A stretch of DNA of 64,000 nucleotides from Stomorhina lunata (Eukaryota; Arthropoda; Insecta; Diptera; Rhiniidae). The position numbers and the translations under genes were made by a program. Below the pieces are notes generated by a model that was not told the DNA's origin, did not search any database, and saw nothing but the letters and a program-made list of their open reading frames with translations. This document shows positions 9,554-58,688 of this stretch, in pieces (position 1 is the first letter of the stretch; each line of letters starts with the position of its first letter). Where the stretch lies: assembly GCA_933228675.1 (NCBI GenBank), contig OW121741.1:18341510-18405509 (forward strand). The letters run 5' to 3'.

Positions 9554-9559
9554 GCCTCA

Positions 9560-13489: not shown

Positions 13490-16440
13490 CTAAGCAACAT
13501 GTGGCTAAGGTCCTAAAACTAATATATTATTATAAATTTACTCAAAAATTACATAAAAATCTAACTTGTATTCATTTAACCATTTATTTTTTTTAAATAG
13601 ATTTTAAATGTTACTCAAGTTTTGGCAACATGTTGCTAAGGTCTCAGATACTAATATATTGTCATAACTTTACTCAAAAAGTATAAAAAATATTCCTGGA
13701 ATTGTTTTATCCTAATGATTTCTTAGCAACATGTTGCTAAAATATTTTAATGTTGCCAAAGTATCAAATTAAATGTAAATGTGAAATAAACATAAATTTT
13801 GATTTAAAATCCTCTTGAAAGATTTTCAAACTCCATGAATTTGATTATGACTATACGAGCTCTTTAGCAACATGTTGCTATAGTCATTTATAGCAACAGG
13901 TTTCGAAAGTTTCAAACTATCCAAAAATGTAAAATAAATGCAAATTGGAAGTTTATGAACCTCTTTAAAAATTTTAAAACATCATAAGATCGAGCCTGAC
14001 TGAGCAATATAGCAACATAGCAACATGTTGCCAAGGTTTCAAATTACTTAAATATAAATTATTAAAGTTTTTTAAACGACATGACTTCAATAATGCCTTT
14101 CACTATGAATTCATCTATAACATTTACTACTGTTTTTTTTATGATATTACTATTCGACTATAACATTTACTACTAGTTCCTTAGCAACATGTAGCTATAG
14201 TCTTTCAGCGCAACATGTTTCTAAAGTCTTCAACTACCCAAAAGTGGAAGATAAACGCGAATTTAATTTTATGAACTTTTAAGATTTTCAAAACACAATA
14301 AGATCGAGCTTAACTTTCATTAGGATTTTGGCAACCAGTATAATATTTACTAAGAGTTCCTTAGCCAGATGTTGCTATAGCAACATGTTGCCAAGATCTC
14401 AAATTACCTAAACATACCTATTTAAAGTTTTTGAAACCATATGACTTCGATAACTATGAAATCGTTAATAACATTCACTACGAGTTTTTAGCTGCTGAAA
14501 TCTTTTGATAGCAACATGTTGCCAAAGTCTTAAATTACCAAATATTTTAAAATAAACAAAAAATTTACTTTGAAATTTTGGCAAAAGAGTGTTTTGATCA
14601 TGACTTTTACTATGATTTTGATCTTACGTATTTCTACGACTTTTTTAGCAACATTTTGTTAATTTTTTTGTATAAACATGTTGCCAAAGTCTCCTATTAC
14701 CTAAAATTTTGAACTAAGTTAATATTTTGCTTTTATAACATTAATTATGAATTTTATTATTTCAACAAGTAGTTTAGCAACATGTTGCCTAAATCATTTC
14801 ATAGCAACATGTTGCCAAAATCTCAAACAAACTATAAGTTTGAAATAATCTAAAATTTTACTTTAAATTATGATTCTGACTAGTATTTCGTCCAAAATCA
14901 TGACTTCAACTGTGATTTTGACTTTGCTTATTTTTACGACTTCTTTAGCAACATTTTGTTTGATACTTTTTGCAGCAACATGTTGTCAAAGTCTCCTGAT
15001 ACCTAAAATTTTGAATTAAGCTAAAATTTGTTTTAATAAAAGTCGTTTTACTATTTCAACGCGTAACTAAGGAATATAATGCAAAGAATATTTAATAGCA
15101 ACATGTTGCCAAAGTCTCAAACTAACAAAATATTGGAAGTAATCCAAAATTTAAATTATAATTTTCACCAAGACTTTGACTAAGGCTAAAAAGAATTTCT
15201 ACTTCACTGATAACTTGGACTACATATTTCAAACCACTCTCAAGTCTAAGCAACATGTTGCCAAGGTCTTTAACTTAAGTTGACTTTAATTCTTTAAAGA
15301 TTTTGAAATGCTATGACTTCGATTGTGACAATTGAATAGACAATAATATGTACGAGTTCTTAAGCAAGATGTTGCTAAAGACTTTTTATAGCAACATGTT
15401 GCCCAAAGTCTCAAGTGGCCTAAAAACTTGAAATAATCCAAAATTTTATTGAAAATTATGATTTCGACCAAGACTTTGACAAGAATTAAGACTACGATTT
15501 TCTCTGAGACTTTGTTTAGGACTTTACTGATAACTTAAACAACATATTTTCACATTTCTGAGTCTAGGCAACATGTTGCCAAGCTAAAACACAAATAAAT
15601 TGCTATAACTTAATTCAAAAATTATATAAAATCTCTCTGTTATAAATGTATCTCAACGATGTTTCATTTTTGCAACATTATCCATGGCAATATGTTGCAA
15701 AACTTTCCATGGCAACATGTTGCTAAAGTCAAAATTATCAAAAAATTTTAAATAAGCGAATAATTTTACATTAATAAACCTCTTTAAAGAAATTGAATAT
15801 AACTTCCAAATGTCTGATAATGTCTTTGGCAACATGTTGCCAAAGTCTCACATTACCTAAAATTTTGAAATATACGAATATTTTTATATCAATAAACCTT
15901 TTCAAAGATTTTGAAATGCTATAACTTTGATTTTGACTTTCACTATGAAATTGGCTATAACATTAACGAGTTCGTATGCAACATGTTGCTAAACACTTTT
16001 TATATTTTGCCAAAGTCTCAAGTAGTCTAAAAATTCGAAAGAATCTAAAATTTTACTTAAAACTATGATTTCGACCAAGACTTCGACTATAATTCAGCAA
16101 CATTTTCCATGGCAACATGTTACCAGAGTCTCAAATTATCTAAAATTTTGAAATACACTAATATTTTTATATTAATAAACCTTTTCAAAGATTTTGAAAT
16201 GCAATGACTTCGATTGTGACTTTCACATTGAAATTATTTTAAAATTTACGAATTCGTAAGCAACATGTTGCTAAAGTCTTTTCATAGCAACATGTTGCTA
16301 AGATCTCAAACTGTCTAAAAACTTGAAATATTTTAAAATTTTACTTAAAAAAATTATTTCGACAAAGAATTCGGACTAGAATTTCGACTTCCTTTATGAC
16401 TTCTTTGATAAAACTTGTACGGCATATGTGTTCGAATATT
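13490..16440. repeat. Array block A (type 'GCTAAAGTC / GCCAAAGTCTCAAA')
   Basis: About 17 perfect palindromes. Typical contexts are TAGCAACATGTTGCTAAAGT and GCAACATGTTGCCAAAGTCT, alternating along the block. Spacers carry recurring phrases 'GACTTCGATTGTGACTTTCAC' and 'AAACCTCTTTAAAGATTTTG' in decayed form, so the unit was once longer than the box. The copy at 15834-15855 extends to a 22-bp perfect palindrome. Confidence 0.9.
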
Positions 16441-17725
16441 TGAATAAATTATTGAAATTTATAGTTTTTGTTTAAGTTTTCAAAATTCCTTTTAACACCT
16501 TACAGCAATTCTAACATAGTTCCATTTCAAATAGTTTTTAAACTCTACAAAAAAATACTTGCAAGGCAAAAAATGGTCTCATATACAGGGAGTGCCTTTG
16601 TCAGTTTCAGAGTTTTTGCTGCAAACTCAATAATATTAGCATTTAAATTATGGGGGTTTTTAAATAAAATTCTTTTAAAATAACTCTTGGCAAACAAAAT
16701 GGATGTCAATTTGAAAAGTCCGTCCGGCTGTAAGTCTGTCCTGCCATACATCTGTCTGTCTGTCATTCCGTCCGTCTGTCCCTCCGCCGTCCGTCTGTCT
16801 TAGACAAAGCTTTTAATTCTAAAACTTATAGTTCATTAAAAAAAAAAACTCATTGTTTGATTTTAATTTTTTATGAATTGAATAATTTTATTATTTAAAC
16901 TTCTTAAGCTTGATTTTCAATTACATTTAACCATGCAATGATATTCTTTTTTTTTTTTTTTGCTAAGTCTATATAAGATAGTTTGTCTGTCCATCAGTCT
17001 TTCCAGTATTCTGTCCGTCTGTCCACTCATTTAGGTGAGTGTAAGCCATGCAGTCAATAAAAAGTATTAAACTTACATTTCCTGTTGTTAGTATTTAAAT
17101 AAAATAAAAGAAAAAAATTAAAAATAGTTAGTATATGTTTGACAAGTTTAGCTTTATTTTATTTTTTTCTAAAATATTTTGCATATTGACATAATAAACT
17201 GAACTTTGTATTATTGTAATGCATATTTGCAAGTGGAAAAATGTTGTATTGTTGTATATACAAATAATTCAAATAGAGACAAAAAAAAACTATTTATCCA
17301 CAAGACACGATTGTGGCACGAAATTCACATTAGAAAATCATTTGTCATACTCAAAACTATTTATGCAAAATACTTGTAGAAATATGGAAAAAAATACAAT
17401 ATAATAAATAAAACTTGGAAATTGTTTTAAAATTTATATGAAAATATCGTAAGACAGAGATTCATGGTAAAATCCCATGAATAGAAAAAAAAATGCAATT
17501 TGTTGCTTAAACCCTTAACGTTTGAAAGAAATATAGAATTTTAAAATATGTATAACATTATGACATGACAGGTTGGTTAAATGGTGGGCAAATTAAACAT
17601 AGGAATAAAACCTTGTAATATTTGGTTTCTTTCTTTTTAAATAGACAATAAACATTTATAAAACCAGAAATACTTAAACAAATTTGTAATTTTTTTACAT
17701 AAAAACTGATTTAATTGAAAAAATT
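16441..17725. other. Repeat-free island with CTGT/CCGT microsatellites
   Basis: There is no palindrome for about 1.3 kb. CTGTCTGTC/CCGTCCGTCTGTC tracts lie at about 16715-16805 and a weaker one at 16980-17030. No gene recognised. Confidence 0.6.
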
Positions 17726-19400
17726 TTGGTTTCAGATACATGTTGCCGCAACATTGTTTAGATACATGTTGCTATAACTCTGAAAAGCTTGCAAATTTAC
17801 TTTAATTAAGAAAATCTTGCTTTATTTTCAATTTCAATCACTTGAAAGGTTTCAGATACATGTTGCCTTAATTTTCATAAATGAGAAAATATCAGATATA
17901 TGCTGCAGCAACATTGATTAGAAACATGTTGCTAAAACTTCAAAAAAACTTGCAAAACTACTTTAATTAAGATGATGAATCATGTTTTTCTTCAATTTAG
18001 AATTAATCACGTGAATGTTTTCAGACACATGTTGCCTCAACATTGATTAGGAACATGTTGCTTTAACTTTAAAACATTTTTAAAAACATTTTTTTTTCTA
18101 CATGAATAATAAAAAGTTATTAAAAGCTCTTAATTTGTATAAATTTGTAATAAAATATGTTAATAGAAACTCAGCAACATGTTGCAGAAGCATTTTGCTA
18201 AGATACAAAAATTTTTGTAAGTCATTAACTTACTTTTACATAAAATCAGCTCAATTTTAAATATTATTAGTTAACTAGCAACATTTCACAAGCATTTGAC
18301 AAGGTTTTAGATGCATGTTGCGTCGACAATTATTAGAAACAAGTAGCTACAACCTTAAAAAATAATGAAATATCTTAACAATAAGAAAATACTAAAGAAT
18401 TGTGTAATTATTTCACATAAAAAATGCTTTAATTAAGAAAATGTTAGTTTCTGAAACATGTTGCCACAAAATTGATTAGCAACATGTTGCTACAACTTTG
18501 ACAAAGTTGCAAATTTACTTTAACTAAATAAATCATGCTTTTAGAATTAATCAGGGTTTTAGATACATGTTGCCTCAACATTGATTAGGAACATGTTGGT
18601 ACAACTTTAAAATATTTTAAAAATATATTTTCGCTACATGAAATAAAAAGTTATTAAAAGTTGTAATAAATTTGTATAAAAAACATATTAATAAAAACCC
18701 AGCAACATGTTGCAGAACTTAAAAAACATATTTTCGCGTTAACAATATTAAAAAGTTATTAAAACTTCCAAATTTGTATAATAAAACATGTTGACAGAAG
18801 CCCAGCAACATGTTGCAGAAGTATATTTCTAAGATACAAACATTTTTGTAAGACCTTAACTTACTTTTATATAAAATTAGATAATTTTAAATGTTGATAG
18901 TAGGCTATCAACATTATACAAACCTAGCAACATGTTTCAGAAGTATATTGCTAAGATATAAACAGTTTTGTAAAATTGCCTCAATTTAAAATTTTAATAG
19001 TAAGCCAGCAACACTTTACAAACCTGGCAACATGTTGCAGAAGTATATTGCTAAGATACTTACATTTTTGTCATTAGCTATTTTGATTGTAAGTTAGCAA
19101 CATTTTAGACATTGGTTTGGTTTCAGAAAGAAGGTTTCAGAAACATGTTGCCTCAACATTAATTATAAACATGTTGCTACAAAATCAAAAAGCTTTTAAA
19201 TGTTTTTTACAATTGAAGAACAATTAATAGTTATTCGAAACCTTCTATTTGTATAATGAAACATGTTGATAGAAACCTAGCAACATGTTGCAAAAGTATG
19301 CTGCTAAGATACTAATATTTGTTTTCATTTGAGAGGGAATCATTTTGAAGGTTTCAGATACATGTTGTCTCAACATTCATTGGAAACAACGCTTAAAAAC
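17726..19400. repeat. Array block B (paired ACATGTTGC half-boxes)
   Basis: Only about six perfect boxes (near 18172, 18478, 18700, 18806, 19027, 19280). The common element is a pair: TTTCAGATACATGTTGCC, then CAACATTGATTAG, then AAACATGTTGCTA, in which one half-box has lost its GCA. Another recurring unit is CCCAGCAACATGTTGCAGAA followed by 'GTATATTGCTAAGATAC'. This is the most decayed of the larger blocks. Confidence 0.85.
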
Positions 19401-20990
19401 TTTTGAACAATTTTTAAAAGTTACTTAAGTCTTATCAACATGTTGCTAAGGCCGGAAATCGTAATAAATTTTTTAAACATTATTCAAAAATGATATAAAT
19501 TCTAGCTGGTTTTTCATCTTTGATGATGTTTTTTTCTTTCTTAGCAGCATGTTGCCAAAGTCTTAAATTACTTTGAAAGATTTTCAAAAGCTAAAGTCGA
19601 GTTTAAATGTTTCTAAATTCTTAGCAACATTTCGCAAAAAACCTTAAGTTAAGTTAAAATTTTAAAGTTAAAATATATATATTTTACTGCTTTAAGTCTT
19701 TAAAGTAGATTTTAAGAGTTGCTGAAGTCTAAGCAACATGTTGCTAAGGTCGGAAAAAATAATAAATTTTTCTTAGCAAGATGTTGCTAAAGTCTGAAAT
19801 TACTTAAAATAATAAATAAAGTGGGAACTTTAGTTTAATAAACCTCTTTAAAGATTTTCAAATGCTGAAGTAGAGTTTAAATGTTTCTAAAGTCTTAGCA
19901 ACATGTTGCAAAATCTGCAACTTTTTTAAAATATTAGATTAAGTTAAAATTTCATAGTTAACATTTTATAGTTAAAATATATTTATTTTACCGCATAAGC
20001 CATTGAAGTAGGTTTTAAAAGTTGCTCAAGTCTAAGCAACATGTTGCTAAGATCGGAAATCGTAATATATTTCTAAAACATTATTAGAATTTTTTTAAGC
20101 CTTTATTTTATTACAGAAAATAACAATAAGTAATCAAATCTTAATCTAACGGAAGTTATATAGAGATTGCCAGTGCAGTTCTATTTGTTAGTTATTCGAA
20201 ATAATAGGAATTATTAGAAAATGATATAAATTCTGCCTAGTATTCATTTATGTTAAAGTTTTTTTCCTTCTTAGCAACATGTTGCCAAAGTCTGAAATTA
20301 CTTATAATATTAAACAAAGCCAAAATGTTAGTTTAATAAACCTCTTCAAATAATTTTCAAAAGCTGAAGTAGAGTTTAAATGTTTCTAAAGTCTTAGCAA
20401 CATGTTGCAAAACCTCTAAGTTCTCTAAAATATTAGATTATGTTAAAATTTTAATGTTAAAATATACTTATTTTACCGCATAAGCCATTGAATTAGATTT
20501 TAGAAGTTCATCAAGTCTATGCAACATGTTGCTAAGGTCGGAAAACGTAATATATTTCAAAAAAAAATATTTGAAAATTATATAAATTCTACTTTAAATT
20601 CTACCTTCATATATGTTGGTGCTTTTATTTTCTTAGCAACATGTTGCCAAAGTCTCAAATTACTTTAAATATTAAATAAAGCCAGAATTATAGTTTAAAA
20701 AGCCTCTTTGAAGATTTTCAAAAGCTGAAGTAGAGTTTAAATGTTTCCAAAGTCTTAGCAACATGTTGCTAAGGTCTTAAATACTAATATATTGTTAGAA
20801 ATTTGCTCAAAAATTACATAAAATTTTTCTGGTAGATAAATTCATAAATTTGTTTTAAAAGCTTGATTTTCTTAGCAACATTTTCGTAAATTTTGTTCCT
20901 GGCAACATGTTGCCAAAGTCTCAAGTTATCCAAAATATTGAAATAATCAAAAATCTTACTTTAGTAAACCTTTTAAAACATGTTTAAACA
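19400..20990. repeat. Array block C (type 'AAGTCTTAGCAACATGTTGC')
   Basis: About nine perfect boxes between 19733 and 20911. Three contexts rotate: TCTAAGCAACATGTTGCTAA (then GGTCGGAAATCG), TTAGCAACATGTTGCCAAAG and TCTTAGCAACATGTTGCAAA. They form a higher-order unit with the shared phrases 'GATTTTCAAAAGCTGAAGTAGAGTTTAAATG' and 'AAATGATATAAATTCT'. At 20754-20773 the box extends to the 20-bp perfect palindrome CTTAGCAACATGTTGCTAAG. Confidence 0.9.
20080..20219 (-). mobile_element. Short retroposed insertion in the array with 10-bp target duplication
   Basis: ATTATTAGAA flanks the insert on both sides (20080-20089 and 20210-20219). The 120-bp insert (20090-20209) starts with a T run on the plus strand. 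Read on the minus strand it ends AATAAAATAAAGGCTTAAAA, a poly(A) signal followed by an A tail. The unit at 19477-19500 in the same block shows the uninterrupted version (ATTATTCAAAAATGATATAA), so the empty site is known. It is a short 5'-truncated retrocopy of an mRNA or LINE 3' end; the source is not recognised. Confidence 0.75.
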
Positions 20991-21975
20991 CTTTTTCTTC
21001 CCTCAGTCATTTCATTCGTAACTGTGATATTTCTTTGTTCTTTTCTTTCTTTATGATTTTGCTTTCCGTTTCTATAAATGTCAATGTCATCAGCATTTAT
21101 TGTTTGCTAAAGCTGAAGTAAGAATAAAAATAAGAAGAAACCGTCCGTATATAATATCAATACCCTTTAAAAAGTTATTGACATTTGGGAAACTCTTGCA
21201 GGAATTGGAAAAAAAGGGATTGTTAATAATCTATGGAAAAGCGTTTAGTACTGCAAAAATATTTGCTTAAAATCGTAGTAAGAGAAGAAGCTATAAAATC
21301 AATAATAAATTGAAAATGACCACCAGCATGTAAAACATTTATTGTAAAAGTGGATATTAACACCCCCTTTTAAGCAGAGACAATTGAACTTGACAACAAG
21401 TGCTGGAAAGTTTTAGAAATATTTAAAGCAAAACTTTTTTAATGAAATACTTGCACTTGGCTTCATTAGGGGATTTTTTAAAAGGACACAGATGTTTATG
21501 AGTCCCCAAAGAAAGGGGATTTTTAGTGTTACACACATAATTGAAAGAAAAGTGGTTGAACTTATTTCAATCGATATTTGTTTTATGGTTTTTATTGAAG
21601 GTTAAACCCTTTTCGCTTTCGAAATTTTAACAATTAGGGGAATTGCTATACATTATACACATTTCGCAAAAAGGGTGTGTTCAAAATTTGCAAAATATCA
21701 ACTGAGGGGGGTTTTTGTTTATTTTAACTTTGTTAAAAAATTATAGTATAAACATATCAATCATTTTGTTGAGTTTATTATAAATAAGTTTTTTGTTGGC
21801 TTAAGCAAAAAATAAAACTTTGATTCGTTGCGTTTATATTAATAATTAAACTGATAACAATAACAAGGTCGTTTGAAAATGTAGACATTATTGAAATGAT
21901 AACAAAGGAAAATTGAAATTTTGGAATTAATAGTTTTTGAAATTTTTAAAATAATCAAAAAAAATAAGATTCCTG
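20991..21975. other. Repeat-free island
   Basis: About 1 kb without the palindrome, AT-rich with several G-run phrases (GGGGATTTTT, GAGGGGGG). No gene or element recognised. Confidence 0.5.
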
Positions 21976-23190
21976 AAGTCGGCAACATGTTGCTAAGAAT
22001 TAAAAATCCTAGCAACATTCTTAAATCCTTCCATCAACTTTTCAAAATTGATTTAGCTACATGCTGATCATAATTTTAAGATAAAAGTTATATTTCAAAA
22101 TTCTTAGATTTTATCTTCCAAATGTTTTGGCATGTTAATGTTAATTCATAAATCACTAACTTCAACATATTTTTTAATATAATAGGAGTCTGCAACATGT
22201 TGCTAAGTACTTTAAATTCTGGAAATATTTCGTCCTTAGTTTTGAGTTTTTATTTTACAGAGAAAATTGAAATTTTGAAATAAATAATATTAAAAATGTT
22301 TAAAATAATAAAAAAAAAAAATATTTCTAAAGTCAGCAACATGTTGCTAAGAACTAAAAATCCTAGCAACATTTTTAAATCCTTTAATTGCATTTCAAAA
22401 TTGATTTAGTTACATGTTGCTTATAAATTAAAAATAAAATAATATTTTTTTCAAAATTTTAAGAGTCTGCAACATGTTGCTAAGAACTTAAAGTTCTAAA
22501 AATATTTTTAAGTTCTTTGATTTTGTCTTCCAAATATTTTGGCAGCATATTGCTTTATAAGTCACCAACTTTAACATATTTTTTAACATAATAAGACTCC
22601 GCAACATGTTGCTAAGTACTTTAAATTCTGTAAATATTTCATCCTTAGGCCTTAGTTTTTATTTAATAAAGGAAAATTAAAATTTTAAAATTTATAATAT
22701 TAAAAACGTTTAAAATAATCTAAAAAATATAAGATTTCTGAAGTCAGCAACATGTTGCTAAGAATATTAAAACTCTAGCAACATTCTTAAATCCCTTAAC
22801 TACATTTCAAAATCTATTAAGCTGCATGTTGCTAATAAATTTAAGATAAAAGAATATTTTTAAACAATATTTAAAAGTCTGCAACATGTTGCTAAGAACT
22901 TAAAGTTTTAGAAATATTTTAAAGTTCTTGGATTTAATGTTACAAATGTTTTGGCAACATATTGCTTTTTAAATCATCAACTTCAACATATTTTTTAACA
23001 TAATAAGAGTCAGCAACATGTTGCTAAGTACTTTAAATTCTGGAAATATTTCGAAATTCTTAGTCTTGATTTTACAAATGTTTCAGTAACAAGATGTTAC
23101 CTTAAATTAAATTTAATAAAATTTGTAAAAATGTGTTGAAAGTACTGCTGGCAACATGTTGCAGAGGTTTTAAAGTGTATCAAAAAATTC
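21976..23190. repeat. Array block D (dimeric, 'GTCAGCAACATGTTGCTAAGAA')
   Basis: About nine perfect boxes (21981 to 23151) in alternating settings. One is AGTCAGCAACATGTTGCTAA, then GAA and 'CCTAGCAACATT'; the other is TCTGCAACATGTTGCTAAGT (or GAAC), then 'ACTTTAAATTCTG.AAATATTTC'. Neighbouring phrases 'CAACTTCAACATATTTTTTAACATAATAAGA' repeat about every 400 bp (22155, 22570, 22980), showing a unit with three boxes. Confidence 0.9.
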
Positions 23191-23658
23191 GACAAATGTT
23201 AAAAAATTGAATATATTTTGTAGCCTGTTTATTAAATTTGGCTGAAATAGAGGTTAGTATAACTTTCTAGGCCACTTATTAAGCAACCTTTTATAAAGAC
23301 ATCACTTTTGAGCACTTCTTTGTAGCTAACTTAGCATGTATCAGCCGCATTTTTATTTCTTATATATTAGCAACAATTTAATAAAAATATCTTTGAAAAG
23401 AAACCATGTTCTTGATACAAATACTTCTCTTTGAATAGTATTTGGATATATGTTGCAGCAACATGTCTCAATAAATGCTTTGTTTATGAAAAAATAAGGA
23501 CACCAAAGTTTTTTCTAAGAAAATATTTTGCACAACATCGACAGCTTAGCCAGCAAAATGTTTCTAAACACTTTTTGGAAACAAGCTTCTTCTGTTATGT
23601 TTTAACAAAATAGTTTAAAAAAAATACTAAAAGCGAAAATAGATCTCCATTTTCAATG

Positions 23659-23660
<2 letters not shown>

Positions 23661-23726
<66 letters not shown>
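23661..23726. repeat. (AT)n microsatellite, about 66 bp
   Basis: Uninterrupted AT dinucleotides inside the array, directly before a diverged box (CTACATGTTGC). Confidence 0.97.
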
Positions 23727-23727
<1 letters not shown>

Positions 23728-23759
23728 TGCTACATGTTGCTGGAGATTTTAAATGTTAA

Positions 23760-25095
23760 TAGAAACCATGTAGTCAGCAACATGTTGCTACAAAGTTTTT
23801 GTAACAACTTCTCTTTCGTAGGTTTTATTAAAAACTTTCGCAAATATAAAAAATAGTTTCCATGACTTAATAGAGATTGGGCAACATGTTGCTAGGAATT
23901 TTAAATGTTTCGATAGTATAGGAAAAGTGATCCAGTTCCACTTCCTTTCAGCATTTAAATTATCCCTTTTGCAACATATTTTAAAATATAAATATTTATC
24001 AATATATATCAGCAACATGTTGCGAATCAATTATTCTTAAAAGTAGGACTTTCATTAAATAGTCGGGCATTAAAATTGTTAAAAAATAATCTCAATAATA
24101 TAATTATAAAATTGTTTGCTTATTTGGCAACATGTTGCAGCAACATTTACATAAAAAACTGTTATTTTAGCAACATGTTGCTAAGAAATATGGTCATATT
24201 CATCAAATTTTTAGTGATTATAGTTATTTCAAAATATCTTAAAGATATAAATAAAATAGTTCCAGATTTTTTGGCAACATGTTGCACAAACATTTATAAA
24301 CATATTGTAAAGCATTCCCCGAAAACAAAAAAATCTGCTTAATATATTTAAGGAACGCGTTGTTAGAAAGCTATTCAAATTAAACCAAATGTTGCAGCAA
24401 CATGTTGCTGACCCAATTTCTATTAGAACCCTCTAGTTTTTGCTTTCACCAAATTTGTGGGCATTAAAATGAATTAAAAAATATATCAATAATATAAATA
24501 TAATATTCAGCTTATTTTGCAACATGTTGCAGCAACATTTGCAACAAAAAACTATTATTTTAGCACTATGTTCCTAAACATGGTCATAAATATATATTCA
24601 TAAAATTTTCGAGGACTATAATTATTTAAAAATTTCTTCAAGATATTAACAAAATAGATACAGGTTTTTTGGCAACATGTTGCAGTAACATTTATTAAAA
24701 AATCACAAAATATCTCCTTAAACAAAAGTTCTGCTTAATATATCTCCAGAACATATTTTTAGAAAACTTTTTATATATATTCAAATGTTGCAACGACATG
24801 TTGTTGAGTCAAATTTTAATAAAAACCGACTATTTCTTCTTCTATTTGATTCAAAAATTACTTTCATACAATTTATCTTTCTCTACAAATTCAATTAACC
24901 ACCGTGACATACAAATTCTACTTAATATATCTCAAGAACATGTTGTTAGGAAGATGTTCAAATCAAACCAAATGTTGCTGCAACATGTTGCTGAACCAAA
25001 TTTCAATAAAATCCCACTATTTTTTTCTTAAATTTTATTTTAAAATTCCTTTTAAACAAATTATCTTTCTCTCCAAATTGTATTGGCCACCATGA
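23760..25095. repeat. Array block E (396-bp higher-order repeat)
   Basis: About ten perfect boxes. GGGCATTAAAAT followed by 'TTAAAAAAT', 'TCAATAATATAA' and 'GCTTATTT(G)GCAACATGTTGCAGCAACATTT' recurs at 24065 and 24461 (396 bp apart). The end of the unit, AAATGTTGCAGCAACATGTT then GCTGA, recurs at about 24393, 24783 (decayed) and 24969. Composite boxes with the direct half-repeat TGCAGCAACATT are typical. Confidence 0.88.
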
Positions 25096-27030: not shown

Positions 27031-27049
27031 GTTTTTCTAAAATTCTTTA

Positions 27050-27890: not shown

Positions 27891-28019
27891 TGTTTTTCCA
27901 TTATTTTTTCGCCAATTCTATTCAATTTTCTGCTCTTTTTATTTGCTAGTCATTTAAGTGCAGTTCGATCACCTTTTTAGATTATTAATACTTAAAAAAG
28001 TTCATGATTGTGTAGAGAG

Positions 28020-32580: not shown

Positions 32581-32584
32581 AGTT

Positions 32585-41365: not shown

Positions 41366-41369
41366 AAAA

Positions 41370-45230: not shown

Positions 45231-48200
45231 TTTAATTTTGCAAGAGAATGCAACATGTTGCAAATGAGTTTTAACAAAATATTTATTTTGAAATAAACAA
45301 AAACTCAAATTTTTAATAAAATTTACTAGTTTTTGCTTAAAAATATGATATACAAGAAGTCTAGCAACATGTTGCTGGCAAAAAATTTATAAAATAGCAA
45401 AAATATTGAGTTCAAAACATATTCTAGCAACATTTTGCAGCATTTTTAAAGCAAAAAAGGCACTTTTTAGTTAATAAGAAAATATTTCTAAAATGTTTCG
45501 CAACATGTTGCAGAGGAATTTTTCAAAACAAACATGAAAATTGTTCACAAAAATGTAAATGCAACATGTTAGGACATTTTATAAGCAAAAAATACACTTT
45601 TAAGTACATATGAAAATTTTTCTTAAATGTTTCGCAACATGTTGCAGAAGAATTTTTCAAAACAAACATGAAAATTGTTCACAAAAATGTAAATGCAAAA
45701 TTTTAGGATATTTTATAAGCAAAAAATACACTTTTTAGTACATATGAACATTTTTCTTAAATGTTTCGCAACATGTTGCAAAGGAATTTTTCAAAAAAAC
45801 ATCAAAATTGTTCACAAAAATGTAAATACAACATGTTAGGACATTTTATAAGCAAAAAAGGCACTTTTTAGTTAATATGAAAATATTTCTAAAATGTTTC
45901 GCAACATGTTGCAGAGGACTTTTTCAAAAAAACATAAAAATTGTTCACAAAAATGTAAATGCAACATGTTGTGACATTTTTTAAGCAAAAAAAAAATACT
46001 TTTTAATAAATAAGAAAATATTTCCCAAATGTTTCGCAACATGTTGCAGAGGACTTTTTCAAAAAAACATGAAAATTGTTAACAAAAATTTAAATGCAGC
46101 ATGTGAGGACATTTTATAAACAAAAAAGGCACTCTTTAGTAAATATGAAAATATTTCTTAAATGTTTCGCAACATGTTGCAGATAAATTTTAAAAAAAAA
46201 ACATGAAAAATTCTTCACATAAATGTTACATTTTTAAGATATTTGTTAACATAAAACCATTTTATTAGTGAAAAATCAAGAAGTTTAAAGCAACATGTTG
46301 CTAACAATTGTTTAATAAAAACATTAAAATTTTACAATAATTGTAAAAATTAATAGTTTTTTCGAATTTTTTTAATTAAAATGACAATTTTTACTTAATA
46401 ACAATAAATTTCCTAAATGTTTCGCTACATGTTGCAGAGAAATTTTTCAAACAAACATACAAATTTTTCGCAAAAATGTAAAATGCTACATTTTTAAGTT
46501 TTTTTTTTATCTTAAAACCATTTTTTTTTAGTGAAAATCAACAAGTTAAAATTATGTTGAGCAACATGTTGCTAACAATTGTTTAAAACCAATATTAAAA
46601 TTTTACCATTAATATAAAAATAAACAGTTTTTCAGAATTTGTTTAATGAAAAGGACAATATTTACTGAATATCAAATTGTTTCCAAAATCTTTTGCAATA
46701 TGTTGCAGAGGAATTTTTCAAACAAACCTGAAAATTGTTCACAAAAATGTAAAAAAGTTAAATTTTTAAGGTATTTTTAATTTCACAACATTTTTTATTG
46801 AAAAATTAAGAAGTTAAAGTTATGTTGAGCAACATGTTGCTAACAATTGTTTAATACTAGCATTCAAATTTTACCACAATTGTAAAAATTAACAGTTTTA
46901 GGGAATTTGTTTAATGAAAAGGACAATTTTTACTGAATATCAAAATGTTTCGCAACATGTTGCAGAAATTTTTTTTAAACAAACACGATTCTTTTAATAC
47001 GAATATAAAGTGCTACCTTTTTAAGGATTTTTTTAACTTTCCCCGATTTTTCTGCTGAAGTTAAAGTTAAAATTATGTTGGGCAACATGTTGACAACAAA
47101 TTTTTAACACCAACCTTTAAATTTTTCCTAAAAATGGTAGTTTGTAAAGAATTTTCTGATGAAAAATGAGATTTTAAGTATATAACAAAACATTTAAAAA
47201 ATGTTTCGCAAAATGTTGCAAAGAAATTTTTCAAAAAAACATGACGTTTTCACTCAAATACAAAATTTTAACTTTTCAAGGATTTTTTAATTAAAAAAAT
47301 AAAAATATTTAAATTATGTGGTGCAACATTTTTACAAAAATTGTTTAAGACATTCATTAAAATTTCACCTTCAACATAAAAATGTATCGTTTTTTAAGAA
47401 TTTTTCGATGAAAAAGACAATTTTTATTAAATAACCAAAAATTTCTAAAATGTTGCGCAACATTTTGACAAACACCTTTTAAAACCTGTATTAAAATTTC
47501 ACCTCCAACATAAAAATTTATGTTTTTTTAAGAATTTTTCGATGAAAAAAACAATTTTTATTAAATAACCAAATATTTCTAAAATGTTTCGCAACATGTT
47601 GCAAAGAAATTTTTGAAATAAACATGAAAATATTTCACAAAAATATAAATGAAGGATTTTTTTTTAAAGAAAAAGAACATTTTCTGGTAAAAAAAATCAA
47701 AATTTTAAAAAATATGTTAAGCAACATGTTGACAAAAATATTTAAAAACATTATTAAAATTTTACTACATACATAAAAATCAACCGTTTTTAACAAATTT
47801 TGATAAAAAAAAATACAATTTTCAGTAATTAATAAAAAATTCAAAAAGGCTTTGCAAACAACCATGAATATTGTTTACAATAATACAAAATTTTTTAAAC
47901 AGAAAACAAAATTTTCTAGTAAAATAATCAAAATTTTGAAATTATGTTGCGCAACATGTTGACAAAAAAATTTTAAACTCATTTTTAAAATTTTAACACC
48001 AACAGAATTTTTTGACGAAAAAGACAATTTTTAGAAAATGAAAAAAATATAAATGTTTAGCAACATGTTGTAGAAAAATTGTCCAAGTAAACATTAAAGT
48101 TATTCAAACAAATATAATATTTCATATTTTAAAGGACTTAAAATAAAAAAAAAACTTTTTTTTGGTAAAAGTTCAAAGAGTTAAATTGATGTTGCGCAAC

Positions 48201-48500
48201 ATGTTGATAAAAAAATCGAAAAACACTATAAAAATTATATCACCAACATAAAAATTAATAGTTTTTAAAGAATTTGTGCAAAAAAGGCAATTTTTAGTAA
48301 AAACCAAAATTTTTCTAAAATGTTTCGCAACATGTTGCTTATAATTTGTATTAAAGAAATCTCTAAAAAAAAAACGATATATAGATTCATGTATTCAAAC
48401 CAAATTTAGTCAGTAACTTGTTTCTTTTTGTCTGAAATGTTTATAAACAAAAATTTCGCCTAGCAACATGTTGCTAAGAATTTTCATTAAAGAAATCTTT
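45231..48500. repeat. Array block L (same monomers as block K, with a 134-bp tandem)
   Basis: About 15 perfect boxes. ATGTTTCGCAACATGTTGCA followed by GAGGAATTTTTCAAAACAAACATGAAAATTGTTCAC occurs at 45495, 45629, 45763, 45896, 46031 and 46164, spaced 133-135 bp: a regular six-copy tandem. Further on the dimer with TTATGTTGAGCAACATGTTG (46560, 46827) or TTATGTTGCGCAACATGTTG (47945) returns. Block L therefore resumes block K after the island. Confidence 0.93.
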
Positions 48501-49445
48501 TGAAAAATCTCTTCATTTCTCAAATTTCCGGCTATTTCTAGTTCATTTTTGTTCAATCTGTCTTTAATACATATTTTCGTATCAATATTCTTTGATGACT
48601 AATATCATTGTGGTACATTAACAACTTTTTCTATACTTTTTCAATAGCTACGTTGACTTTTTGTTCAACTTCACAAGCTATTCTGTTTTTCATACCTTAA
48701 ACATGGCAACCTGAACCCATTAAAGGTTTTTTTGTTTCCAACAACTTTTTTTCTTTTAATGTTTCCAACAACAGAAGCTGTAAAGAATGGCAACAACCAT
48801 AAAAGAAAAAATCGCAGACTACAGGCAACACAGCCAACAAAAACAAAAAAAAACAAAGCAAACGTGTTTTTGTTAGAAAATACTCGTAGTTATATGTAGA
48901 AATAGAAGTCTAATGCTCCAAACAAAAGACTCAAGAAAAATGTTGCTAGCAAAAATAAGAGTCCAAAAAGTGGCTGAAAGAAGTTTATTTGTATGACTTG
49001 TGCTAAACTAGTTTGTTGTATAATTTCAAGTGCTGCTGTTTGGTGCCTTTTTTGTTGTTGCTGTTCTATTCTATTTCTAATTTGTGTAATTAAATTTGTG
49101 TTCTTTTATTTTAAGTTTTTTTTCCCTAAGTTTCTTTATTTTAGTTCAAGTCAATACTCTAGACTTTTTAGTCACTTAAAAAGTTTATCTTTTTGTTGTA
49201 TTTCAGTGTTTGATTAACTTATCAGCTTTGATAATTTATGGCAACATTTGTTTCACACTGTCACTTATTTCAACAAAATCAAACAAACGGTCAAGGGTTT
49301 TTGTTGTAGTTGTTCGAATAAATAATACATTTTTTGTTTTATATTAAAAAAATTGCTTTGAATCAGGAAAAATTTAACCTTGAATTGAAAATTCTTTGGT
49401 GACAGAAGTGTTTGAAATGAAGTAGAATGTAGTTTTTATTAAAAT
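48501..49445. other. Repeat-free island
   Basis: About 0.95 kb. AAC/CAA-type microsatellite DNA at 48790-48860. Frames at 48671-48856 and 48993-49217 are not supported by any recognised family. Confidence 0.45.
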
Positions 49446-51250
49446 ATTACTTCAAATGTTGCTGCAACATGTTGCTAACAATTTGTTTTTATTAAACATA
49501 TAAGAAAGTTTTGTATAATTTTAAAAAACTGACCATATTTACATGTTTTAAGCTAATGCAACATGTTTTACACTTCTGCAACATGTTGCTAAACATTTTT
49601 TAAAAATCAGCTCAATTTGAAATACGAACTGGTTATTACAAATACGGAGTAATAACGTTTTTCTGCAAAACTGTTCAACAAAATGTTGCTGCAACATGTT
49701 GCAGTAGTGTGAAACATGTTGCATTAGTGTGAAACATGTTAATATCATCGAATTTAAGAAATTTCTCAAAAGTTTCTCATATTTGTTAAACAAAATGTTG
49801 CTGCAACATGTTTCTAAACAATTAATCAGTAAAAAATTTAAGAAGTATTTTAAAACTTACGATATTTGTTCGCAATGCAACATGTTTTGTGTTCTTGCAA
49901 CATGTTGCCAAACATTTGTTGTTTAATAAAAACAACTTTAAACTCGAACTGGTCCTTACAAATACAAAATATACACGTTTCATTATAAAAACTTCAAGCT
50001 AAATGTTGCAGCAACATGTTGCTAAATAATGATTCAACTAAAAATAACAGACAATTTTAAGTATTTTCTTCAAAATCATGATATTTACGTATTCCACACT
50101 AATGCAACATTTTAAATGCTGTTGCAACATGTTGCTAAGCATTTTTGGTTAATCAAAACCACTTAAAATTCGAACTGGTTATTGGAGATACATAATAAAA
50201 ACAATATTTTCAAAAATGTTACCTAAAATGTTGCTGCAACATGTTGCTAATCAAACTATCAGACTTAAAAGTTATATTTTCAACAATTTTGTCAAAGAAC
50301 TTGAAGTTTCTTTATATTGTATAAAAACTGAACAACATTTTATACCATATTAACCTATAGCAACATGTTGCCAATATAAAATTTTTAAAGTTTTACATTT
50401 TTACAACGTTTTAACAAATTCAAAATGTTGCTAAACACTTTTTGATAAATCAAAAGCTTCAAATTGAAACTGATACAATAATATTAAACAAAATGTTTCT
50501 GCAACATGTTGCAAGGAAGACACAAAATCTATGATTCCGACAATTAAGTTAAATAATTATATGTAAAGTAACTGGGAAACATTTGTTACAATATTAATCA
50601 TTAAAAAACGATACAATATTAATCTTTAGCAACATGTTGCCAACAGAATAACATTTTATTTTGTCTTATTATATTTAATTTTTAACAATTTTGTCGTATA
50701 ATTAGTAGTTGTTTAATATGGCATAGAAATAACTAAATAACTTTTGATACATTATTAACCTTTAGCAACATGTTGCTAATAGAAAATTTTTAAATTTATA
50801 TTATTTTATACCATTTGCTTTAAAATGTTGCTAAACACCTCTTGATAAATAAAAAAGCTTCAAATTGAAACTGATACAAAAATAATAAGTAAAATGTTTC
50901 TGCAACATTTCGCCAAAATGCCAATTATATGAAATATTAATCTTTAGCAACATTTTGCCAATAGAAAACTTTTTATCTTTTAAATTTTACACCGTTTTTA
51001 CTGCTGTAAAATGTTGCTGTGCCCTTGTTAATAAATCAATAGCTTTAAATTAAAACTGATACAAAAATTTCGTACAAATTCTTTCTGCAACATGTTGCAA
51101 GGTTGACAATATGTCATAAAAGTTATATTTCTTACAATTAAGTTAAATATTTAGATGTATAGTAAATGCAAAATGTTTGATACATGATTAATTATTGAAA
51201 AAAAAGACATAATATTAAACATTAGCAACATGTTGCCAGCAGAAAATATT
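49446..51250. repeat. Array block M (type 'AATGTTGCTGCAACATGTTGCTAA')
   Basis: About 13 perfect boxes. The composite ATGTTGCTGCAACATGTTGC (49456, 49684, 50230 and decayed forms) holds a half-box separated by CTG from the full box. A second type, TAGCAACATGTTGCCAA (50358, 50625, 51222), alternates. Spacers repeat 'TCAATTTGAAATACGAACTGGTTATTACAAATAC' and 'GCTTCAAATTGAAACTGATACAA'. Confidence 0.9.
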
Positions 51251-51820
51251 ATTATTTTTTCCCGGTTTTGCTCCTTTTGAAATATTTTCTAATAATTAAT
51301 TATATATGTTTTCCTATGCCATAAATTATCTATACATTTTTTTGACTCCTCCACATTTTAAAATTGTTTAAACCAATTTTAATTATGATTTCTTTTTTCA
51401 TTCAATTCATTTTGTCTAGAAGACAGCTTATTTTGTTTTTCATAAGTTTGTTTGTATCTTAAACAAATTCTATAATTTTTAATATGACAGCCCCATTATA
51501 AAACAATTATTTGTGTTTATTATTAATGCCTTTAAAGATATTTTTGTATTACTTCCAAAAATAACCGCCCACAAAATATTTATCTGGCTTTTTTACCACG
51601 TGCTTTATTTAAAAGTAGCAAATTTCGTTAAAATTATTATGTGTTTTTTTTAGTTTGATTTTAGATAATAAAGTATTTGATTTCACGGAATTTGATTAAT
51701 TTGGAAATCTTATCTTTGGATTTTGAAGGTAAAGAAAAAAGAGGCCAAATACATGTTTAAAATTAGAACTTTATAAATTTATAAAAAACCAGTTAAATTT
51801 TGAGATGTTTTCAATGCCAT
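51251..51820. other. Repeat-free island
   Basis: About 0.57 kb of AT-rich DNA with no palindrome and no recognised gene. Confidence 0.5.
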
Positions 51821-52500
51821 AAAGTGTTTAGCAACATGTTGCAGCAACATTTTTTTAAATAATGCGATTTTTTTTTTCTTGAAATAAAATTATAATTTTC
51901 ATTGTGTTTAATTTTGTGATATTTTTAAGAAATTTGTTATGTTTGAGACAATTTTTCATACAAAAAATGTTTAGCAACATGTTGCAGCAACATATTTTGA
52001 ATGATTTTATTCAAGAATGTGTGGTAGCAACATTTTGTTTTAAATTTTATGAAAAACTAGTTATATTTGTTGGGGTTTTCATACAAAAATGTTTATCAAC
52101 ATGTTGCAGCAACATATTTTTAATGAATTTTACTCAAGAATGTGCGGTAGCAACATTTTGTTTTAAATTTTATGAGAAACAAGTTATATTTGTTTGGGTT
52201 TTCATACAAAAAATGTTTATCAACATGTTGCAGCAACATATTTATAATGAATTTTTTCAAGAATGTGTGGTAGCAACATTTTGTGTTAAATTTTATGAGA
52301 AACTAGTTATATTTGTTTGGATTTTCATACAAAAAATGTTTATTAACATGTTGCAGCAACATATTTTTAATGAATTTTACTCAAGAATGTGTGGTAGCAA
52401 CATTTTGTTTTACATTTTATGAGAAACTAGTTATATTTATTTAGGTTTTCATACAAAAAATGTTTATCAACATGTTGAAGCAACATATTTTTGTGCTTAG
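51821..52500. repeat. Array block N1: 123-bp tandem
   Basis: AAAAATGTTTATCAACATGT followed by TGCAGCAACATATTTTTAATGAATTTTACTCAAGAATGTGTGGTAGCAACATTTTG repeats with ATG at 51967, 52089, 52213, 52337 and 52460 (122-124 bp). The unit length near a multiple of three keeps a frame open (51904-52422, 172 codons), which is a by-product and not a gene. Confidence 0.93.
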
Positions 52501-53775
52501 CAACATGTTGCAGCAACATTTTTTTAAATAATGCTTTTCTACTTGAAATAATATTCTCATTGTTTTAATTTTGTGATATTTTCAATACAAAAAGTGCTTA
52601 GCAACATGTTGCAGCAACATATTTTTAATTAAAAAATCCAGGTATGAGTTGCAGCAACATTTTGTGTTAAATTTTATGAGAATCTTGTTATGTTTGAGAG
52701 GATTTTTCATACAAAGAAATGTTTGTCAACATGTTTCAGCAACATTTTTTGTTTAGTTATGGGCAAGCAAATACCTAGAAAACATAGATTTTAAAATAAA
52801 GAATGAAAATTTGTTAAACATATAAGCTTTAAAATATTTACAAATGTTGAGCAACATGTTTCAGCAACATTTTTTATTTAACTATATGTAAGCAAACACC
52901 TAGAAAATAAAGATTTTAAAATAAAGAGTGAAAATTTATTAAATACATAAGTTTTAAAATACTTAGAAATGTTTTGCAACATGTTGCAGCAACATTTTTT
53001 GTTTAGTTATGGACAAACAAACACCTAGAAAACATATATTTTAAAATAAAGAATGAAAATTTGTTAAATACAAAAGTTTTAAAATATTTAGAAATGTTTA
53101 GCAACATGTTGCTGCAACATTTTTTGTAAGTATGGGTAGCAAACACCTAGAAAACAAAGATTTTTAAATAAAGAGTGAGTATTTATTAAATACATAAGTT
53201 TTAAAATATTTAGAAATGTTTAGCAACATGTTGCAGCAACATTTTTTTGTTTCATTATGGGTAAGAAAACACCTAGAAAACATAGATTTAAAAAAAGAGT
53301 GAGAATTTATGAAATTTATTTCATTTAATGTTAAGCAACATTATAGTAGATAAGTCTTAAAATATTTTTTTATTTTAACAAATATTTATTAACATGTTGC
53401 AGCAACATCCACGGTCTTATTGTGTTTAAAAAGCACAAGATTAATGAAATTTATGAAACTTATGTATATTAAATAAAGCTAAATTTATGTAATGTTCAGC
53501 AACATGTTGCAGCAACATCATGTACTTAATTAAAGTACAAATACTGAGCAATTAAGCATTTTTTGTTTCAAAATACATATAAAATCTTATTCAATTTTAA
53601 CGTTTTTTAATAACATCTCCCAGCAATATGTTGCAGCAACATCCTGTACTTAATTAATGTAAAAATATTGAGCAATTAACCATTTTTTTTTTTGTCAAAG
53701 CACGTATAAAATCTTGTTAAAATTTCAATTAATTCATAACCTTTCCCAGCAACATGTTGCTAAGCTTAAGATATC
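52500..53775. repeat. Array block N2: 125-bp tandem with 'GCAACATGTTGCAGCAACAT'
   Basis: ACACCTAGAAAA(C/T)A occurs at about 52771, 52896, 53021, 53143 and 53269 (122-126 bp apart). Each follows TTAGCAACATGTTGCAGCAA then CATTTTTTGTTTAGTTATGGG and a run of AAC(A/C). Later copies (53500 and 53635) change to 'CATCCTGTACTTAATTAATGT'. About nine perfect boxes in blocks N1 and N2 together. Confidence 0.93.
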
Positions 53776-54815
53776 TTATATTTTTGTCTACTTTTTCAAA
53801 GCAAAACATTAAAATAACAACAATTTATTGTTTATTTTTTTTATAGTGTTTTCTTTTTCTGTAAATTTTTATGAATTTGACCTACAAAATCAAGGGACGG
53901 CTGCCGCCGACGAGCAGCAGAAAAAAATATCATAATTTAGTTAAAGACATAACAAATTTTATTTAATGATTTTTGCGGTTTTTGTCTTTACGATGACACC
54001 AATGGTGGCTGGCGATAAAGTTAATGATGAAAACTATAAATGAGGAAAAATAACGTAAGGAAACGTATCTCGATCTTCTTGAAGTTAAGAAGTTTTTAAA
54101 ATTTAAATTATGTATATGAAGAAGACGGCTATAATAATGATGGTCTTAAAGAGCAGGGACAAAAAACCTGCGGCTTTTAAAGCGAATTCTCTGTTTTTTA
54201 TGAGACGTCATTCAAGTATTCACGAAAATAAATTTTGTATTTCAGCAAAATTTTGGTGAAAATTGATAATTTTAAGCTCAGCAACAAAATTTAAAATAGT
54301 TCTTTACTTTCCTTTAATAGGTCCGGCTCAACATTTTTTTGTTAAATCTAATCAAATTAACACAATCGTCTTGATTGTTATTTAAGCTACAATATATGTT
54401 ATTTTTTTATTGATTGAATAAATAAGCTTCTTCAGTAATCAAATATAATTTATGATTTCTTTTTGCTATAAGCCAAAAGCTAAATCAACTAATCATCTTA
54501 ACAACCATCAGGTTCGCCATAGTAGTACCAGCAACATTTGAAGCTAAAATCTGTCAGTTTGAGTGTTTTTGCAATTGATTCATTTGAAATCGTAAAATCA
54601 AACAATAACCATTATTTAGAATTGGCTATAATGGCGTCTTGGTTATAATAATGTTAAATAAATGAACTAAAAATAAATATAAATAAATTTTCAAAGACTT
54701 TAGAAGACAAAAGATTAAATGGCGAAAAAAAATATTACAAAAAAATTCCAATTAAATGATTTTTTATTTAAATGGAATTTAATAAAATCGTTTTAGATAA
54801 ATTTATTAAAAAAAT
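53776..54815. other. Repeat-free island
   Basis: About 1 kb. A short GC-richer patch, GGGACGGCTGCCGCCGACGA, lies at about 53893-53912, the most GC-rich stretch within the array. No gene recognised. Confidence 0.45.
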
Positions 54816-55790
<975 letters not shown>

Positions 55791-55829
55791 TTATTGAAAA
55801 CTGAAAAAAAAAATTCATAAAAAATCTAA

Positions 55830-57790
55830 GAAATAATGTTTAGCAACATGTTGATAAAAAAATATTAGCAACATGTTGCGAACATTTTTTTTTTTTTTCA
55901 AAATTAGACAATTTATTGAAAATTTTATAAAAATAGTAAATAATGTTGTACTAACAAAATAATTATGTTTAGCAACATGTTGCTTAAAATCAAGCAACAT
56001 GTTGCAAAGAATTTTTTATTAAAAATTGGACAAAATGGCTAAAAACGTTAAAAAAAAGTAGAAAAAGTAAAAAAATCTTAAGTAAAAATATTTGGCAAAA
56101 TGTTGATAAAAAAACATATTAGCAACATGTTGCAAACAATTTTTTTCTAATAAAAACTAGACAATTTATCAAAAAAATTCATAAAAATCGTAAATAATGT
56201 TGTATTAGAAAAATAATTATGTTTAGCTACATGTTGCTTAAAAACAAGCAAAATGTTGTAAAGATTTTTTTATTCAAAATTGGACATTTACACCAAATAT
56301 TCAAGTAATAGCAAAAAATCGTTAAAAACGCTAAAAATTTAGAAAAATCTTAAGCAATAATGTTTAGCAGCATGTTGATAAAAAATATTAGCAACATGTT
56401 GCAAACAATTTTTTATTAAAAACTGAACAATTTACTAAAATGTTGCAAATATTTTTTTATTTAAAATCGGACATTTTCACTTAATACTAAAATAATACCA
56501 AAAATCGTTAAAAAAAAGTAGAAAAATCTTTAGCAATAATGTTAAGCAACATGTCGATAAAAAAAACTAGCAACATGTTGCAAAGAATCTTGTATTAAAA
56601 ATTGGAAATTTACACGAAGTATTAAGATCGTTAAATATCTTAAAAATGTAGAAAAAACTTAAGCAAGAATCTTTAGCAACATGTTTATAGAAAATATTGG
56701 CAACATGTTGCAAACAATTTTTTATTGAAAATTTGACAATTTATTAAAAAAAAATCCATAAAAATCGTAGATAATGTTTTAATAGAAAAACAAGTATGTT
56801 AGCAACATGTTGCTGAAAAAACTAGCAACATGTTGCAAAGAATTCTTTTAAAACATTTTTTTAAATTTATAAAAATCTAAGAAAATATCGTTTTCCTTTA
56901 ACATTTCCATTAAAAAATTAAGACAACAAAGATAATGACTAGAATGTTGAGCAACATGTTGATAAGAAATTTAAGAATCAAAGTGGTTTTTATGAAAATG
57001 AACACAAAATAAAAAAAAATATCTGCCAAAAATACATATGTTGCAAAGTAAAAAAAAAAAACTTTAGCAACAATGTTGGGCAACAAAAATGTTTAGCAAC
57101 ATGTTGATGAAAATATTTTTAAAATCTATCTTTAAATATTAAAAAGCTTAAAAATTATTTTTGCATAAAATAACAATTAAACTGAGTTGCTGAGACATGT
57201 AAATATTTAGCAACATGTTGATAATAAACTTCAAAAAATGCCATGTGTGAATTTTGTAAAATTATACCAATAAAAAATTATAGCAACAAGCAGTTACATG
57301 CTTCTTGCATTCTTCAGCAATAATATTGGGCAACATGTTGACAAAAAAAATGCTTAGCAACATGTTGCAAAGAATTCTTTATTAAAATTTGGACAATTTT
57401 TTGAACAATTTATAAAAATCAAAGAAAATATTGTTTTCCTTTAACATTTCCATTAAAAATTACAAAATTGTGTCTTGCTAAGACAACAAAGAGAATGACT
57501 AGAATGTTTAGCAACATGTTGATAAGAAATCTAAGAATCAAAGTGGTTTTTATGAAAATGAACACAAAATAAAACAATATTTGCAAAAATTCATATGTTG
57601 CAAAGTAAAAAAAAAAAACTTTAGCAACAATGTTGGGCAACATGTTGATAGAAATATTTTTAAAGTTTATCTTTAAATATTAAAAAGCTTAAAAATTATA
57701 TTATAAAATAACAATTAAACTGAATTGCTGAGATATGTAAATGTTTAGCAACATGTTGACAAAAAAATGTTTAGCAACATGTTGCCGGAA
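55830..57790. repeat. Array block P (one-sided plus two-sided box pairs, 545-bp duplication)
   Basis: About 11 perfect boxes. A fixed pair recurs: TTTAGCAACATGTTGATAAA and, about 20 bp on, TTAGCAACATGTTGCAAACA followed by ATTTTTTATTAAAAACT. A long unit holding 'TTTTCCTTTAACATTTCCATT', 'GACAACAAAGA.AATGACTAGAATGTT' and 'AGAATCAAAGTGGTTTTTATGAAAATGAACACAAAAT' is duplicated at about 56891 and 57434 (543 bp apart). The array stops abruptly after the box at 57775. Confidence 0.92.
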
Positions 57791-58680: not shown

Positions 58681-58688
58681 AAATTTCT

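Follow-up and report, generated by a model that had tools for sequence, protein, structure and literature searches.

Dispersed arrays of a 12-bp palindrome in the genome of Stomorhina lunata, possible binding sites for a dimerizing protein of the Doublesex/DMRT type

The genome of the fly Stomorhina lunata contains a system of box arrays that is real, strong, and, as far as the literature searched extends, undescribed. Its element is a 12-letter palindrome, GCAACATGTTGC (here called the box), with the half-site GCAACA/TGTTGC. We analyzed it in a 64-kb stretch of DNA (C2:18341510-18405509, the window) and across the 728-Mb assembly of 104 contigs, with the reversed word as a control. Genome-wide, there were 5,071 exact copies of the box and 3 of the reversed word. 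The exact box is kept, far above chance, among spacers that have drifted, a conclusion supported by the comparisons described below. The interpretation that we tentatively prefer, at somewhat short of even confidence, is that these are dispersed binding-site arrays for a dimerizing protein that would read the half-site, most likely a DM-domain protein of the Doublesex (DSX)/DMRT type.

A preliminary description of the window had reported about 175 perfect copies of the box, a chance expectation well under one, and no copies in the flanks, and a script count bore it out on each point. The exact copies number 175 and all lie within positions 13625 to 57785, where an order-1 Markov model predicts 0.006 for the span. 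Across the whole window, neither flank held an exact copy, and every one of the 81 one-mismatch boxes lay within 13490 to 57790. Half-sites occur at 14.2 per kb in the array and at 0.67 per kb in the window flanks (13 in 19.5 kb); beside the 175 boxes, the array has 279 half-sites that stand outside exact boxes. The array DNA is AT-rich, with about 25% GC. The base preference beside the box is symmetric, approximately (C/T)TTA before it and TAA(G/A) after it, and these favored flanks prolong the dyad of the box as a graded preference.

Although the span had been correctly described as a 44-kb array in its extent, it is not a single homogeneous array of one palindrome. Tandem Repeats Finder and self-comparison resolved it into a mosaic of local tandem families, several of them unrelated and some inverted, many having units of about 100 to 155 bp or multiples of that length (Table 1). 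The blocks at 30.3 to 36.5 kb are related to one another, as are those at 37.8 to 48.4 kb. Considered as a satellite, the array has head-to-tail monomers within each block, yet the array and its box are common to several families that are unrelated. Of the distances between adjacent boxes, 55% in the window fall at 90 to 155 bp (those within 85 to 160 having mean 127, standard deviation 14), as do 58% of those pooled from nine other arrays. A second spacing mode at 260 to 280 is seen in the nine other arrays and is weaker in the window.

We then compared the conservation of boxes and spacers in two ways. In a masked-box test, the box was hidden during the search for homologous spacers and was then scored at the homologous positions. 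At 70 to 75% spacer identity, the exact box was kept in 60% of homologous positions (n = 133) and control 12-mers in 0.8% (n = 261), a contrast that recurred in other arrays and that this test overstates, the query box being exact by choice. The column test is fairer and is free of this bias: units were gathered by spacer similarity and aligned, and each column was scored against its own majority. It covered 20 blocks, 5 of them with too few units, so that 15 families were scored. The box exceeded every other 12-column window in 11 of the 15, tied with the best window in one (37.8 to 39.9 kb), and fell below it in three (13.5 to 21.5, 40.5 to 43.8, and 51.7 to 53.4 kb). Conservation ranged from 0.85 to 1.00 in boxes and from 0.79 to 0.93 in spacers; in G/C columns alone, the ranges were 0.80 to 1.00 and 0.70 to 0.87. 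As the per-base comparison envisaged in the preliminary description, this test upheld the claim that the spacers have drifted far more than the box in those 11 families, but not in the remaining four. Among 167 one-mismatch boxes pooled from the window and 11 loci, the variant base lay at the outer two positions in 113. The most tolerant box position was 6 in the window and 5 in the other arrays, and the mismatch-position chi-square is inflated by the kinship of the units.

The box is not confined to this span, nor is it equally dense throughout the genome: its copies (the places listed are the first ones, on C1) cluster in further arrays, the window array being one of many. A 20-bp palindrome, CTTAGCAACATGTTGCTAAG, occurs 34 times, against 0 for its reversed word. 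In the complete list of its places, it is found on C1, C2, C7, C10, and C11, contigs of 119 to 187 Mb, and on C1 (186.7 Mb) its places span 3.1 to 155.8 Mb. We examined 14 further array loci, 10 taken from places of the box or the 20-mer and 4 from clusters of a 13-mer, GCAACAATGTTGC. Two loci with one box each (L022 and L023) were left out of the array set, and L004, L005, and L007 to L018, which overlap or adjoin the neighborhood of L006, were excluded from pooled counts. An array on C11 (G000:C11:98866500-98889500) holds 20, 23, and 10 boxes in the neighboring stretches L043, L029, and L042, the last of which also has a long simple-repeat run.

To compare spacers between loci, we masked boxes and half-sites and used reversed sequences as controls. 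Among the window and the first ten loci, blastn found three cross-locus matches at E 1e-6, all in flanking repeats. Among 15 arrays, at E 1e-5 with the low-complexity filter, it found 1 match, against 3 in the reversed controls, and the best cross-locus match of a profile search with unit models had an E value of 0.0019. A laxer unfiltered blastn search aligned an AT-rich stretch of the one-box locus L022 to the window at 38 to 48 kb, with 57 to 61% identity. Since the blastn and profile matches hardly rise above the reversed controls, the spacers of separate loci appear not to be recognizably related, with a weak excess remaining.

The system probably has the half-site TGTTGC(T/C)A as its unit. 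One array, L028 (G000:C10:59702500-59708500), has 87 half-sites and one full box, with the nonpalindromic TTAGCAACATTT in both orientations, and another, L027, has 68 half-sites and 5 full boxes. The 142 half-sites that stand outside boxes in these two arrays have the consensus AAATGTTGCTAAGA. The half-site 6-mer is kept at 0.924 in L028, against 0.722 for the spacers (n = 24 units), and at 0.944 in L027, against 0.713 (n = 12). The 13-mer GCAACAATGTTGC occurs 379 times genome-wide, against 6 for its reversed word, and 13-mers are often 110 to 170 bp apart. Many of the first 100 places listed, on C1 and C2, stand alone, far from the next. Four arrays were picked for holding 13-mers and so speak for the existence of such arrays, not for their frequency. 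L030 (G000:C2:8101800-8106300) has ten 13-mers of the form GCAACA(A/T)TGTTGC and no 12-mer, with diverging half-sites 2 bp apart. The 13-mers and 12-mers number five and one in L031 (G000:C2:6172500-6174700), four and eight in L032, and three and nine in L033. The stretches of 8.5 kb on either side of L030 (L040 and L041) have neither 12-mer nor 13-mer and contain 5 and 8 half-sites.

Half-sites keep to a narrow set of spacings, in counts that include related units and are not independent. In the window, converging half-sites are spaced by 0 in 175 cases and never by 1 to 7, and diverging half-sites by 0 in 29 cases, by 1 in 24, and by 2 to 9 in 2. Over the 15 arrays, converging spacings were 0 in 389 cases, 1 in 22, 2 in none, 3 in 3, and 4 to 12 in 5; diverging spacings were 0 in 31, 1 in 88, 2 in 16, and 3 to 9 in 5 (none at 3 and 1 at 4).

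This half-site has a known counterpart. In published work, the 13-mer GCAACAATGTTGC is the palindromic DSX consensus (PMC4652034), the DSX site is an inverted repeat of six flanking a central A/T pair, with no strong DSX preference at position −6 (PMC1931443), the MAB-3 site is AATGTTGCGA(T/A)NT (PMC6736625), and DMRT1 binds as a dimer, trimer, or tetramer (PMC9713387). The arrays have in common with the DSX/DMRT site the identical 6-bp half-site as an inverted repeat, as well as tolerant edges around a firmer core. The exact 13-mer also forms arrays in this genome, and the array half-sites AAATGTTGCTAAGA match the MAB-3 site over AATGTTGC-A. Four loci of the genome pass the Pfam cutoff for a DM domain, and the best PDB match of one of them (L036) is Doublesex 1lpv (E 4e-23). 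We consider it quite likely that a protein-binding constraint acts on the box. If so, a DM-domain reader would be somewhat better than an even prospect, because the half-site is the DSX consensus half-site and matches the MAB-3 site and because some arrays hold the DSX 13-mer. That reader stays a candidate, since the window spacing is always 0 and a DSX site carries a single base pair between its half-sites.

A mechanism along these lines can be proposed. A putative protein would read the half-site TGTTGC(T/C)A(A), binding as a dimer or higher oligomer, and the 12-bp box would present two such half-sites head to head with zero bases between them. Selection on binding would preserve the box, and the spacers would be altered by mutation and by turnover of units. 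With many protomers gathered on it, each array might then, more speculatively, serve as a platform of a chromatin or enhancer kind in its neighborhood, or it might act as a sink and thereby control how much of the protein stays free. In its fullest form, this proposal would hold that half-sites and sites of DSX/DMRT, a family of sex-determination transcription factors, occur by the thousands in long, satellite-like arrays that evolve independently throughout the genome and are kept for binding. The arrays would work in a sex-specific way, either as a sink or as a scaffold for chromatin, and the 44-kb array between an NR5 nuclear-receptor gene and a Rab9-like gene would be one of them. We regard that fuller version as unlikely.

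Several observations weigh against a DM-domain reader or against binding constraint altogether. The central A/T pair of the DSX site is absent from the window box (0 of 175 at spacing 1). The 15 arrays, four of them picked for 13-mers, have 411 sites spaced by 0 or 1, and a central base is present in 22 of these. Genome-wide, the 12-mer outnumbers the 13-mer by 5,071 to 379. With four loci, the DM genes are not expanded, and, in the sources consulted, DSX sites are not described as arrays of tens to hundreds of sites. Three of the 15 families fail the column test and one merely ties; the 13-mer of L030, with only 4 units, does not pass it either (0.942, best window 0.962). For 12.5% of the spacer windows of L028, conservation is no lower than that of the half-site 6-mer, and a half-site motif lengthened there to 13 bp is less conserved than the spacers (0.750 versus 0.820). 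Unfiltered blastn among the 15 arrays at E 1e-5 gave 27 matches, against 17 in the reversed controls, and cross-locus profile matches exceed those controls by 9 to 0 at E 0.1 and by 49 to 11 at E 1. This weak excess may reflect a remote common origin of the spacers or degenerate unmasked sites. The choice of the four 13-mer arrays and the kinship of the units counted for spacing count on the same side.

The dominant spacing of 0 favors a rival in which some other chromatin protein that binds satellites (of zinc-finger, MADF/BESS, CENP-B-like, or other type) packages or clusters the AT-rich arrays through the box and the likeness to the DSX site is a 6-bp coincidence. The arrays are AT-rich, long, and repeat-like, with a 100- to 150-bp spacing that resembles satellite organization, and the CENP-B boxes, found in otherwise differing satellites of different species, are a known precedent. 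This account has a serious claim, although we doubt it; coincidence would not predict exact DSX 13-mer arrays and MAB-3-like half-site arrays in the same genome, with 13-mers often 110 to 170 bp apart. Arrays that recruit a pairing protein, as the pairing-center motif arrays of Caenorhabditis elegans do, would likewise show a 12-bp motif repeated many times. Meiotic pairing sites are nevertheless improbable here: the 20-bp form is scattered from 3.1 to 155.8 Mb of C1 and over five large contigs, whereas a pairing center sits close to one end of its chromosome and the centers draw on several motifs.

Binding by a protein, one of the explanations raised in the preliminary description, gives the best fit to the half-site arrays, the kept 6-mers, the symmetric flanks, and the spacings of nearly always 0 or 1. 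The same description had raised a gene-conversion or repair bias, and perfect dyad symmetry and evident local tandem amplification would suit a palindrome that maintains or propagates itself, with no selection on binding, through cruciforms, repair or conversion bias, or a cutting or copying enzyme. We think this very improbable, however: it leaves the half-site and 13-mer arrays unexplained, since the nonpalindromic arrays L027 and L028 keep the half-site 6-mer on average, the 13-mers lack perfect symmetry, the flanks show a graded dyad preference, and the spacing of adjacent sites is constrained. Repeated spread of the box, the third earlier suggestion, survives as a possible origin of new arrays. 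Equally improbable, and already disfavored, is an ordinary young satellite whose boxes are identical through recent common ancestry. The array does consist largely of tandem blocks, some of those in the window are mutually related, 3 of the 15 families show no box-specific constraint, and cross-locus matches weakly exceed the reversed controls. However, spacer similarity between loci is marginal at most while the box is identical, and the higher conservation of G/C columns in the box is found in DNA of about 25% GC.

Other known motifs were considered and rejected. The RFX X-box, C/EBP, and p53 motifs share TTGC or AACATGTT subwords with the box, and in the RFX X-box an inward-facing GTTGC and GCAAC are separated by about 4 bp. 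The RFX spacing (4, diverging) occurred in 1 case over the 15 arrays, the TTGCGCAA geometry of C/EBP was a minority (31 cases), and the half-site arrays mostly lacked the CATG core of p53. A viral homologous-region origin was set aside as well: the two-box pattern matched no viral contig, and the array has no Rfam family, tRNA, or convincing reading frame. Bacterial metagenome-assembled genome (MAG) contigs with two or three boxes have, by eye, hairpin repeats such as AGACGCAACATGTTGCGTCT, and these are of unrelated origin.

Table 1. Array features by position in the window (last row, positions in other contigs). Paired values are column-test conservation of the box and of the best spacer window.
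Feature	Position	Strand	Basis
Whole array: 175 exact GCAACATGTTGC, 81 one-mismatch boxes, 629 half-sites GCAACA/TGTTGC (those in boxes included)	13494..57785	.	Counts
First exact box	13625..13636	.	Script count
Last exact box	57774..57785	.	Script count
Sub-block A, local repeat family with TTAGCAACATGTTGCTA / TGGCAACATGTTGCCA boxes; box 0.852, below best spacer window, 0.926	13490..21500	+	Self-comparison, column test, 13200-16000 read
Sub-block B, 412-bp higher-order tandem family; 1.0 vs 0.933	21800..23200	+	Repeat finder, column test
Sub-block C, short tandem families; unit number insufficient for column test	24000..28900	+	Repeat finder, self-comparison
Sub-block D, abutting half-sites TGTTGCGCAACA; inverted relative to 34400-36500; 0.986 vs 0.889	30300..32700	+	Self-comparison, column test
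Sub-block E, inverted relative of D; exact box in 6 of 6 units	34400..36500	- (relative to D)	Self-comparison, column test
Sub-block F, inverted relative of the 40.5- to 48.4-kb families; box equals best spacer window (tie)	37800..39900	-	Self-comparison, column test
Sub-blocks G and H, ~133/268-bp and ~308-bp tandem families; G fails, 0.907 vs 0.926; H, exact box in 8 of 12 units, 0.972 vs 0.917	40500..48400	+	Repeat finder, self-comparison, column test
Sub-blocks I and J, half-site + 1 bp + half-site composites (TGTTGC n GCAACA); I, too few units for column test; J fails, 0.940 vs 0.988	49000..53630	+	Repeat finder, column test
Sub-block K, last array families; exact box in 7 of 8 units	54000..57785	+	Repeat finder, column test
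12-mer centered in longer hairpin repeats	L001 2032-2160, L002 3689-3826, L003 4316-4532		Bacterial MAG contigs

No RNA family (Rfam) or tRNA was found anywhere in the window, and no convincing reading frame was found in the array among frames of at least 90 amino acids; the longest, of 172 amino acids at 51904 to 52422, runs through repeat units. A separate tandem array at 263 to 1736, with a 136-bp unit and a 274-bp higher order, is unrelated to the box. The flanks at 4617 to 11541 and 58661 to 63998 resemble, by eye, decayed transposon relics with hAT-like and LINE-like pieces; the open reading frame at 4617 to 5222 has a weak DUF7869 match and nothing more, and inverted repeats lie at 63005 to 63998.

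To the left of the window is a minus-strand open frame that encodes a zinc finger of the nuclear-receptor type and is closest to NR5A2/SF-1 (L038 1-1824), which we take to be Hr39-like, and to the right is a plus-strand Rab9-like exon (L039 6589-6801). The array lies between NR5-type and Rab9-like genes that are both transcribed away from it. No recognizable gene was seen by eye in the flanks of two other arrays (L040 to L043). We claim no gene association, because the NR5/Rab9 neighborhood is a single case. In Drosophila, Hr39 is active in female reproductive glands (PMC5427495).

In the open-license literature, without bioRxiv and most subscription papers and with sources available in part, searches on dispersed satellites, on DSX with satellites, and on conserved satellite boxes turned up no like system, and the extended box words gave no match. 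The earlier statement that no element with this signature has been described is thus sustained within that literature. The box itself lies within a cloned Drosophila fragment, where we suspect a chance occurrence (PMC11469670), and is a text match in PMC10184743.

One box set, at many places of the genome, in spacer families that show no recognizable kinship, with a fixed local geometry, separates binding constraint from ancestry unusually well. If the reader were indeed a DM-domain protein, a DNA target on the scale of the genome would be added to the sex-determination pathway. To our knowledge, nobody counts such arrays as regulatory.

It is mainly at centromeres that satellites are known to contain protein-binding boxes. 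The CENP-B box is likewise short and bound by a protein, and it persists in satellites whose monomers vary from species to species. It differs in sequence from the box described here, and the present arrays occur in one genome, at many places per contig; the many internal places of the 20-bp form per contig speak against a single centromeric block. The HIM-8/ZIM pairing-center motifs of C. elegans are also 12 bp long and repeated many times. Those centers lie at one chromosome end with a motif that differs by chromosome; here, in contrast, there is one palindromic motif at internal places on five large contigs, and the complete list of 34 places of the 20-bp form conforms neither to an end location nor to a chromosome-specific motif. 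The dispersed euchromatic satellites Drosophila 1.688 and Tribolium TCAST1 likewise form tandem arrays over chromosome arms. They are named sequence families, whereas the arrays of S. lunata share only a box and have spacers without recognizable kinship.

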